Source of the DNA: Parerythrobacter sp. | GTDB taxonomy: Bacteria > Pseudomonadota > Alphaproteobacteria > Sphingomonadales > Sphingomonadaceae | Direction: 5' to 3' | DNA length: 38,964 bases | Assembly: GCA_028289565.1 (NCBI GenBank) | Contig: JANQPE010000117.1 | Span: forward strand, 1-38,964 | Part shown: positions 20,965 to 31,643 of the stretch, piece by piece | Layout of the letters: each line of letters begins with the position of its first letter | Numbering within the stretch: position 1 is the stretch's first letter | The notes under the pieces: model-generated | Told to the model about the DNA's origin: nothing | Seen by the model: only the letters and a program-made list of their open reading frames with translations | Databases searched by the model: none | Position numbers and translations under genes: made by a program

Positions 20965-21039
20965 TGGTGACCCCTACGGGAATCGAACCCGTGTTTCAGC
21001 CGTGAAAGGGCCGCGTCCTAACCGCTAGACGAAGGGGCC
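20965..21039 (-). tRNA. tRNA-Glu (UUC)
   Basis: A 75-nt cloverleaf on the minus strand with encoded CCA. The acceptor pairs GGCCCCT with AGGGGTC, allowing one G-U pair. The anticodon arm reads CGGCC-CTTTCAC-GGCTG with anticodon TTC. The T-loop GGTTCGATTCC is standard and the D-arm begins TCGTCTAGCGG. It decodes GAA/GAG and closely resembles E. coli tRNA-Glu. It lies alone between phoR and recJ. Confidence 0.97.
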
Positions 21040-25850: not shown

Positions 25851-27542
25851 TTATATCGGCACAGCGCTGTTGGCCGCGCTCAAAACCGCCCTCACGCTCG
25901 CGGTAGCCACATCCTCGTCGATCCCGACGCCCCAGATCGTTTTGCCTTCCGGTGTCCGGCATTCGAGATAGGCTGCCGCCCGTGCATCACGGCCCTTGCC
26001 GAGAGCATGCTCGGTATAGTCGCGGATTTCGAGGCTCAGACCGAAACTGTCTTCTATCGTGGTCAGCACCGAAGAAATAAGGCCGTTACCACGTCCGCTG
26101 ACACGCTGTTCCTCTCCGCGGACGGCGACGGTACCGGTGAAGATACGCGTGCCGTCACTGGCCCGGCTTTCCTCGTAATCGACCAGTTGGAAATGCTTGT
26201 CGGGGGTCTGCACATGGTAGGCGGCGCGGAAAGCATCCCAGATATCGGCGGCCTCCAGCTCGCGCCCCAGTTCGTCGGCCTTGTGCTGGACATGCGGTGA
26301 GAAGTTCGCCTGCATTTTCTTGGGCAGTTTGAGGCCCTGATCCTGCTCGAGGACCCAGGCGAAGCCGCCTTTCCCACTTTGCGAATTGACCCGGATGACC
26401 GCTTCGTATGTCCGCCCCAGGTCAGCGGGATCGATCGGCAGGTAAGGTACGCGCCAACGCTCGTCATTCTGCCTCTCATTCGCTTCGAAGCCTTTCTTGA
26501 TCGCATCCTGATGGCTGCCCGAAAAGGCGGTGTAGACCAGTTCACCACCATAGGGATGGCGCTGGTGCACCGGTAGCTCGTTGCAATATTCCACCGTCTC
26601 GATGACGCGGTCGATATCGGAGAAGTCGAGTTCCGGATCGATGCCCTGAGTGTACATGTTCAGTGCCATTGTCACGAGGCAGCAATTGCCGGTCCGCTCA
26701 CCATTGCCGAACAGGCAGCCTTCGACGCGATCGGCGCCGGCCATCAGGCCCAGCTCCGCCGCGGCTACGCCAGTGCCACGGTCATTATGCGTATGCAGGC
26801 TGATTACCGCCGCCTTGCGATTGGGCAGGTTACGGCAGAAATACTCGATCTGGTCGGCATAGATGTTGGGGGTCGCCGCTTCGACCGTCGCCGGCAGGTT
26901 GAGAATGATCGGGCGTTCAGGCGTGGGGGCAAGGACTTCCATTACCGCCTCGCAGACCGAGATACTAAAATCGAGTTCGGCGGTGGAAAAGGTTTCCGGC
27001 GAGTATTGGAAATGCCAGATCGTGCCGGGCCGTTTCGCTGCCTCGTCGCGCATGACCTTGGCACCTTCGACTGCGATCTGCCGCACTTCGTCCTTGCTCA
27101 TGCGGAACACGATATCGCGCCAGGCCGGGCTTACGGCATTGTAGAGATGGACAATAGCCGCACGCGCGCCTTCGAGACTGGCGAAGCTGGTGCGAATCAG
27201 GTCTTCGCGCGATTGCGTCAGCACTTGCACCACCACATCGTCTGGAATGCTGCCCGAACGAACCAGATCCTGAATGAAGTCGAATTCCGTCGCGCCAGCG
27301 CTGGGGAAACCGACTTCGATTTCCTTAAGCCCGATCTCGACCAGAAGATCGAAGAAACGGTTCTTCTTTACCGCGTCCATCGGGTCGATGATCGATTGGT
27401 TGCCGTCGCGCAGGTCGGTGCTCAGCCAGCGGGGCGGGGCAGTGATAAGGCGCGTCGGCCATTGCCGGTCAGGTAGGTCGATCCGTGGGAAGGACCGGTA
27501 TTTCGGCGACGGATCGCGCAGCATGTTTTTCGGGGTGTTCAT
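25851..27542 (-). CDS. leuA: 2-isopropylmalate synthase
   Basis: Condenses acetyl-CoA with 2-oxoisovalerate in the first committed step of leucine synthesis; cytosolic. The 563-residue protein belongs to the longer class (type 2). The catalytic start STDLRDGNQSIIDPM and the metal/His region SLHTHNDRGTGVAAAELGLMAGADRVEG are intact. The C-terminal ~150 residues form the regulatory LeuA dimer domain that binds leucine for feedback inhibition. A leader peptide with Leu codons and competing hairpins lies upstream (27545-27676), so expression is probably also controlled by attenuation. Confidence 0.97.
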   Translation of the reverse strand: MNTPKNMLRDPSPKYRSFPRIDLPDRQWPTRLITAPPRWLSTDLRDGNQSIIDPMDAVKKNRFFDLLVEIGLKEIEVGFPSAGATEFDFIQDLVRSGSIPDDVVVQVLTQSREDLIRTSFASLEGARAAIVHLYNAVSPAWRDIVFRMSKDEVRQIAVEGAKVMRDEAAKRPGTIWHFQYSPETFSTAELDFSISVCEAVMEVLAPTPERPIILNLPATVEAATPNIYADQIEYFCRNLPNRKAAVISLHTHNDRGTGVAAAELGLMAGADRVEGCLFGNGERTGNCCLVTMALNMYTQGIDPELDFSDIDRVIETVEYCNELPVHQRHPYGGELVYTAFSGSHQDAIKKGFEANERQNDERWRVPYLPIDPADLGRTYEAVIRVNSQSGKGGFAWVLEQDQGLKLPKKMQANFSPHVQHKADELGRELEAADIWDAFRAAYHVQTPDKHFQLVDYEESRASDGTRIFTGTVAVRGEEQRVSGRGNGLISSVLTTIEDSFGLSLEIRDYTEHALGKGRDARAAAYLECRTPEGKTIWGVGIDEDVATASVRAVLSAANSAVPI

Positions 27543-27584
27543 CGGAAAACTCGTAACGGTATATCTGCTTTGAAAGGTGGTTAT

Positions 27585-27638
27585 CCCTTGGGCGCTCTGG
27601 CGCGCCCGTCAGGCCACGCCGCAGGTCACGCCCAAGGG
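27585..27638 (-). promoter_or_regulatory. Attenuator-type mutually exclusive hairpins before leuA
   Basis: On the minus strand, CCCTTGGGCG (27638-27629, at the end of the leader peptide frame) can pair perfectly with CGCCCAAGGG (27594-27585). The latter segment also forms the 3' arm of a compact hairpin GGGCGC-6 nt-GCGCCC (27607-27590). The two folds cannot coexist. This matches the antiterminator/terminator layout of amino acid attenuators. No U-tract follows the compact hairpin, so termination could be factor-dependent, or the control could be translational. Confidence 0.6.
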
Positions 27639-27676
27639 CGTGTAAGTCGAAGCAGGATGAGGGCGTTGCGGTTCAT
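27626..27676 (-). CDS. leuL: leu leader peptide, 16 aa
   Basis: An open frame of 16 codons, MNRNALILLRLTRPWA, precedes leuA by 83 bp. Four Leu codons (CTC, CTG, CTT, CTT) and one Ile codon fall within six consecutive codons, as in leader peptides that sense charged tRNA-Leu. The last codons and stop overlap a segment able to pair with a downstream stretch, forming mutually exclusive hairpins. A ribosome stalled on the Leu codons would leave that segment free; a ribosome reaching the stop would cover it. The ribosome site is weak. Function is inferred from analogy with E. coli leu attenuation. Confidence 0.7.
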   Translation of the reverse strand: MNRNALILLRLTRPWA

Positions 27677-27751
27677 GCGTGAATCTTCGTCGAAAACGCC
27701 GGTGATGGCAAGCACTGTCTGTAGACTGACATCATGCAAACAGCTTCGCGG

Positions 27752-28105
27752 TCAAGGCTGGCGCAATATCCTTTCCATCACCTTGCCTTTGGCCAGTTCG
27801 TCCACCAACTTGTCAAGATACCGGATTTCGCGCATCGTCGGCTCTTCGACCTCCTCGACGCGCACGCCGCAGACCACGCCCTTGATCAGCGCACGGTCGG
27901 GATTGAGGGCGGGCGCTTGCGCGAAGAAGTTTTCGAAATCGGTTTCGCCATTGATCTCATCATCGAGCGCAGACTGGCTGTAGCCGGTCAGCCAGCGGAT
28001 CACTTCATCGACCTCGGCCTTGCCGCGGCCCTTCTTCTCCGCCTTTTCGACATACATCGGGTACACACTGGCGAAACTCTGGGTGTAGATCCACGGTTTG
28101 CTCAC
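27752..28105 (-). CDS. DUF2200 family protein
   Basis: About 117 residues, soluble, no signal peptide. The conserved core [37 protein letters not shown] is typical of the DUF2200 family, which has no established function. GTG at 28105 was preferred because GGAGG lies about seven bases before it; an ATG six codons upstream (28123) is less well supported. It begins 54 bp after ilvC on the same strand, so it may be read through from the ilv genes, and it ends 76 bp before the leuA leader peptide frame. Confidence 0.82.
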
Positions 28106-28159
28106 GATCGGTCCTCCAGACATCCGCCGGAAAAGCTATCACACCGGGCCGGGAGGTTG

Positions 28160-31614: not shown

Positions 31615-31643
31615 CATTTATGCAGACTATTATGTCTTGTCAA
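31615..31643 (-). promoter_or_regulatory. ilvB: Candidate ilvB promoter
   Basis: TTGACA (31643-31638) is followed after 17 bp by TAAATG (31620-31615) on the minus strand, starting four bases after the miaA stop codon. The implied start point is about 31608, right at the first base of the terminator-like hairpin. Confidence 0.5.

Follow-up and report, generated by a model that had tools for sequence, protein, structure and literature searches.

In the window (the whole 38,964-nucleotide stretch of Parerythrobacter sp. DNA analyzed here), the leucine biosynthesis gene leuA is preceded by a short, leucine-rich leader frame whose last codons form a conserved long-range stem, P1. The earlier codons, including the Leu codons, pair with the ribosome-binding region of leuA; this base stem is a part of the element that an earlier, sequence-only reading had missed. 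We propose that the element is a leucine-sensing, ribosome-mediated leader that most likely acts on leuA translation initiation, a reading to which we assign a probability of roughly 0.55. Sequence conservation, codon bias, terminator absence and position before leuA in many families were computed in support of this model, as was the covariation seen in both P1 and the base stem.

A conserved leucine-rich leader frame

The leader is a 16-codon frame, MNRNALILLRLTRPWA, at 27676-27629 of the minus strand, with its ATG at 27676-27674 and its TGA at 27628-27626 (27626-27676 including the stop). It lies 83 nt (stop to start) upstream of the putatively controlled gene, leuA (25851-27542, minus strand, start at 27542), which encodes a 563-aa 2-isopropylmalate synthase of the NCBIfam TIGR00970 type, scoring above the family cut-off. 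As the sequence-only reading had recognized, four of six successive codons encode Leu (codons 6, 8, 9 and 11), and the predicted peptide ends in LLRLTRPWA.

We collected 154 sphingomonad leuA genes with their upstream DNA from the closest genomes, and found an analyzable equivalent of the leader in 152 of them (L061, interrupted by a run of N, and L142, in which the motif was misplaced, do not enter the statistics). These leaders end in RLTRPWA, RLIRPWA or RLMRPWA, or, in a subtype that carries CCCUUAGGCG instead of CCCUUGGGCG, in RLTRP, with a UAG stop inside P1. An in-frame ATG is present in 140 of the 142 distinct sphingomonad leaders whose spacer is long enough, and in 121 of these 142 at least four of the seven codons that end with CUU encode Leu. 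The Leu leader is thus conserved in sphingomonads. In some distant, non-sphingomonad leaders the Leu run is short.

Codon choice in the sphingomonad leaders is also unusual. CUU accounts for 51% of leader Leu codons vs 8% in the leuA genes, CUA for 14% vs 1.4%, and the Arg before the last leader Leu is encoded by CGA in 148/148 cases vs 2.5%. Rfam 15, searched at its curated threshold with the window and 20 related loci, returned no leader-family match, and lenient matches in the leader region were judged to be chance. The sole Rfam match in the window is a tRNA gene (20968-21039, minus strand).

P1 covaries across relatives

P1 is a perfect 10-bp pairing on the minus strand between the last leader codons, CCCUUGGGCG (27638-27629), and CGCCCAAGGG (27594-27585). 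This long-range pairing had been spotted in the window from its letters alone, and in 46 diverse relatives it covaries: 93% of positions are paired, with compensatory changes at 8 of 11 pairs (one pair, for example, is G-C in 28 sequences and A-U in 16). Scored for covariation as a whole, the structure was matched by no shuffle, slid versions were at most 58% paired, and RNAalifold recovered P1 independently. The local fold of the leader region in the window was likewise better than that of shuffled sequences (z -2.6). Nested inside P1 is a second hairpin, H2 (27599-27620, minus strand; GGCGUG at 27620-27615 with CGCGCC at 27604-27599), which is 79% paired and shows compensatory changes at 4 of 5 pairs. 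H1, a candidate local hairpin over the last leader codons that shares a strand with P1, is 89% paired, but its core does not vary. Because the leader and P1 are both conserved across the family, they cannot be attributed to chance, and their conservation is solid.

The sequence-only reading had set P1 against a 6-bp GC hairpin, GGGCGC/GCGCCC (27607-27602 with 27595-27590; 27590-27607, minus strand), as two mutually exclusive folds. The hairpin is present in the window, but it is poorly conserved: pairing in relatives reaches 70%, and shuffles gain at least as many pair types as the alternative structure does. We therefore rejected it as the competing fold, and any exclusive folds of this element are not the pair originally suggested.

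A base stem between leader codons and the leuA ribosome-binding region

The base stem is formed by leader codons, Leu codons included, and the RNA just 5' of the leuA start. In sphingomonads, leaders pair with their own tails at -16.9 kcal/mol vs -13.4 kcal/mol with the tails of other species (z -14.6). Two upstream control stretches gave z values of -0.7 and -1.2, and a stretch inside leuA gave +4.9, i.e., weaker pairing than permuted. When native and permuted combinations are compared, each part of the leader strand contributes, with z -11.0 for its early codons and z -9.8 for its Leu codons, and the pairing holds within each leader subtype (0/3000 permutations). Most partners fall between positions -20 and -10 relative to the leuA start, on the ribosome-binding region; the leuA Shine-Dalgarno is weak in sphingomonads.

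This is a population-level test, and in single species, the window copy included, the base stem is variable and imperfect. In the window (minus strand), the Leu-codon part pairs CUGCUU (27650-27655) with AAGCAG (27565-27570), as in the minimum-energy fold of the leader region. The early-codon part pairs CGCAACG (27664-27670) with CGUUACG (27552-27558), with one mismatch, and CGUUACG overlaps the presumed leuA Shine-Dalgarno ACGAG (27554-27550). Examples from relatives are CGCAACGGACUACCCCUGCUUCGA with CCGAAGCAGACCGAUCCGUUGCGA (L123), CUUCGACUU with AAGUCGAAG (L080) and CUUCUUCUG with CAGAAGAAG (L150).

A predicted promoter abuts the leader, and no intrinsic terminator follows it

To locate promoters, we searched from -100 to +12 of the leader ATG and kept the best site per locus. 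In the window, the best-scoring consensus match is TTGCCA (27711-27706), a 17-nt spacer and GAAGAT (27688-27683; the whole at 27683-27711, minus strand). The end of the -10 hexamer shows a sharp peak, lying 6-8 nt ahead of the leader ATG in 76/152 loci, and a leader Shine-Dalgarno was not found, its energy being worse than that of shuffled sequences. Given this position of the -10 box and the missing Shine-Dalgarno, the leader AUG is probably leaderless, with transcription starting at or adjoining it. A precedent for a leaderless amino-acid leader is trpL of S. meliloti (PMC10117765, PMC7298713). Leaderless starts may perhaps be general for these alphaproteobacterial leuA leaders. By eye, CTTGAC / TANNNT-like promoters end a few nt before the ATG in six distal leaders (L183, L186, L187, L190, L192 and L194). 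A 123-aa frame (27752-28123, minus strand) lies between ilvC and the leuA leader.

No U-tract follows P1 in the window, and at least five U within the 8 nt after P1 occur in only 2/148 relatives, so that the missing U-tract, already remarked upon in the sequence-only reading, extends to 146/148 relatives. A search for an intrinsic terminator at the leuA leader found none. Elsewhere in the window, a 12-bp GC-rich hairpin followed by six T (31608-31577, minus strand) stands just before the Shine-Dalgarno of ilvB and overlaps a short frame that begins at 31617. It looks like a separate intrinsic-terminator attenuator; having a U-tract terminator instead, the ilvB leader was dismissed as a second carrier of the leuA element.

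The CGACUUA heptamer

The codons Arg10-Leu11 and the following A make up a heptamer, CGACUUA (27643-27649, minus strand), that is near-invariant in sphingomonads (CGA in 148/148, CUU in 142/148, the next A in 147/148) and invariant in a wider set. This degree of conservation exceeds coding needs, including as it does the A that opens the following codon, and base pairing explains it in some species only. P1 starts 11 nt after the first base of the heptamer, at a fixed spacing. The conservation may reflect slow decoding of CGA, stalling at a fixed position or binding of a factor, and the heptamer may keep a stalled ribosome at a constant distance from P1. A ribosome covers ~12 nt downstream (quoted in PMC4833913), and the 11 nt from CGA to P1 would roughly fit the leading edge of a ribosome positioned at CGA-CUU. 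Two other roles were considered and rejected. Ribosomes could have slipped into the +1 frame at CUU-A and read on into leuA, but that frame continues without a stop as far as the leuA start in 55/148 loci, and with no fixed frame. CTNCGACTTA could have been a regulon motif within the same genome, but it has 3 occurrences there, below the reversed control.

Occurrence across Alphaproteobacteria

A covariance model built from the sphingomonads (R1) was searched against 142 alphaproteobacterial genomes, a set with mostly a single genome from each family. R1 matched upstream of leuA genes of another LeuA type, ~27% identical to the LeuA of the window. These loci carry CGACUUA followed by P1 in the form CCCCUGA...UCAGGGG, again 11 nt from the first base of the heptamer and with the stop codon inside the stem. 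None of these loci matched an Rfam family. In a joint alignment of both LeuA types, P1 is 97.5% paired and 7/10 pairs covary. The base stem is likewise detected with the LeuA type distant from TIGR00970 (z -4.9 in 19 loci vs -0.9 for the control).

A joint model (R2) found 49 places with E <= 0.1 in the 142 genomes, where the E-values of training examples are circular because R1 and R2 were built from found examples; position before leuA, which neither model scores, is an independent check. Of these places, which we matched by hand to the coordinates of a leuA family search, 46 (in 46/142 genomes) are on the same strand as a leuA-type gene and about 15-440 nt 5' of it. Matches outside Alphaproteobacteria in a wider phylum sample were few and weak. 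An apparent second copy in the same genome as the window (G000:C72:24099-24168, R2 E 0.001) lies inside a long opposite-strand coding frame, which we take to be a tRNA nucleotidyltransferase, and was set aside as chance.

Its repeated occurrence upstream of leuA in many families, together with the lack of an Rfam entry, makes the element a probable widespread leucine sensor that Rfam has yet to catalog. The open literature yielded no report of it, two paywalled surveys lying outside that scope. Tentatively, and at somewhat less than even odds, we would regard these loci as one class of leucine leaders, defined by CGACUUA, P1 11 nt on and at or adjoining the leader stop, and a base stem; the class would precede two distant LeuA types and be leaderless at least in sphingomonads, and its heptamer may space the stalled ribosome.

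In seven non-sphingomonad loci with a TIGR00970-type LeuA (L181, L183, L186, L187, L188, L193 and L194), two small frames follow one another within the 400 nt upstream of leuA, and each carries a CGACUUA. L183, for instance, has MTRPQKSLSLRLTTLSL at about -356 and a second frame ending in LRLIGGPRA nearer leuA. These paired frames resemble a tandem arrangement of two leader elements.

A proposed mechanism and its rivals

We propose that transcription begins at or adjoining the leader AUG, which would be read without a Shine-Dalgarno. When leucine is plentiful, the ribosome would pass the rare Leu codons, reach the stop and leave, upon which the last codons of the freed leader RNA would form P1, and its early and Leu codons would form the base stem over the leuA ribosome-binding region. 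Translation of leuA would then stay low, perhaps followed by Rho polarity. When leucine is short, the ribosome would stall at the Leu codons (CUN-CGA-CUU) and occupy the closing strand, leaving the leuA start open. The Leu codons would thus serve both as the sensor and as part of the blocking strand. The computed openness of the leuA start is 0.463 when the RNA is free, 0.486 or 0.545 with the footprint of a stalled ribosome masked (depending on stall position), and 0.496 with the whole leader strand occupied. Stalling, the direction of control, the translational output and the transcription start are parts of the model that we infer, the output step because these computed changes in accessibility are small.

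Translational attenuation explains most economically why a U-tract is lacking and why a conserved stem covers the ribosome-binding region. The sequence-only reading had left the final step as either Rho-dependent or translational; the pairing of leader codons with the leuA ribosome-binding region fits the translational option best, and Rho stays a serious, if rather unlikely, rival. According to this rival, quick leader translation would expose an untranslated, C-rich spacer on which Rho loads, and a stalled ribosome, or the fold it brings about, would prevent this. Besides the missing U-tract, the spacer between leader stop and leuA suits such a scheme, containing 34% C vs 23% G, with C exceeding G in 90% of loci, and S. 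meliloti trpL demonstrates that alphaproteobacterial leaders can use transcription attenuation (PMC7298713). However, the excess of C is modest, the spacer shows no other sequence conservation, and termination by Rho does not need a conserved base stem on the leuA ribosome-binding region.

It is less probable still that CGACUUA and P1 constitute the binding site of a factor, with leader translation secondary, as proposed for the actinobacterial LEU element. Conservation of the heptamer beyond coding needs, its fixed 11-nt spacing to P1 and the few Leu codons of some distant leaders would all be in keeping with such a site, yet a pure binding site would not need the ATG, the run of at least four Leu or the rare Leu codons that sphingomonad leaders maintain (140/142 and 121/142 for the first two). 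Classical transcription attenuation through an unconventional intrinsic terminator, i.e., a hairpin without a U-tract, appears improbable: hairpins rich in GC do occur in the region, and some folds overlap, H1 and P1 having a strand in common, but 146/148 relatives are devoid of the U-tract and the proposed terminator hairpin is not conserved.

Discussion

The closest parallel to the translational leader proposed here is the LEU element of Actinobacteria (Seliverstov et al. 2005, PMC1262725), in which a leader with a Leu run upstream of leuA has its Leu codons paired with the Shine-Dalgarno in a base stem, and a compact fold contains the stop codon and a conserved pseudoknot, with no terminator. 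Both elements thus share the Leu-run leader before leuA, the stop codon inside a compact fold, the base stem between Leu codons and the leuA Shine-Dalgarno region and the absence of a terminator. The LEU element has been described only in Actinobacteria, and with a pseudoknot. In the alphaproteobacterial element, P1 and H2 are nested. R1 gave no match at four actinobacterial leuA loci (L201-L204), indicating no sequence similarity, and CGACUUA was not seen there by eye. Because of this missing match, and because our element was found in Alphaproteobacteria, we consider that it works like a LEU element without filing it as one. The authors of that study doubted leader translation on the basis of Streptomyces mutant data and preferred a bound protein (PMC1262725); here, unlike their view, the conserved frame and codons argue for leader translation.

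A similar plan is visible by eye in the leuA regions of Nocardia, Nonomuraea, Microbacterium, Cupriavidus and Sinorhizobium pSymB. Leu-run leaders with a possible pairing of Leu codons and Shine-Dalgarno were seen, also by eye, in L207 (S. meliloti pSymB), L209 (Cupriavidus) and L204 (Microbacterium), and look LEU-like outside Actinobacteria; the possible pairing in L207, for example, is CUUCUUCUUCUC with GAAGAGAAG.

With the enterobacterial leu and ilv/trp attenuators the leuA element has in common a short leader enriched in the amino acid that it senses, and S. meliloti trpL is, like the proposed leuA leader, also leaderless (PMC10117765). Unlike classical attenuators, the leuA element has neither a U-tract terminator nor a conserved terminator hairpin, and it pairs with the ribosome-binding region. 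In the antibiotic-responsive erm and cat translational attenuators, the stalling of a ribosome within the leader frame frees the start of the gene that follows. Our proposal shares this logic, with uncharged Leu-tRNA as the signal; unlike in erm and cat, the sensor codons would themselves be the blocking strand.

If true, the proposal would place leuA under leucine control across a large bacterial class, and would represent an amino-acid attenuation that acts on translation start, its sensor codons doubling as the blocking strand. The presence of the element before two LeuA types that are ~27% identical suggests that the regulatory RNA was kept, or carried along, while the enzyme changed. The actinobacterial LEU element, whose mechanism was left open by ambiguous mutant data, could be re-examined in light of a clearer counterpart, and CGACUUA would offer a sharp, as yet unexplained target.
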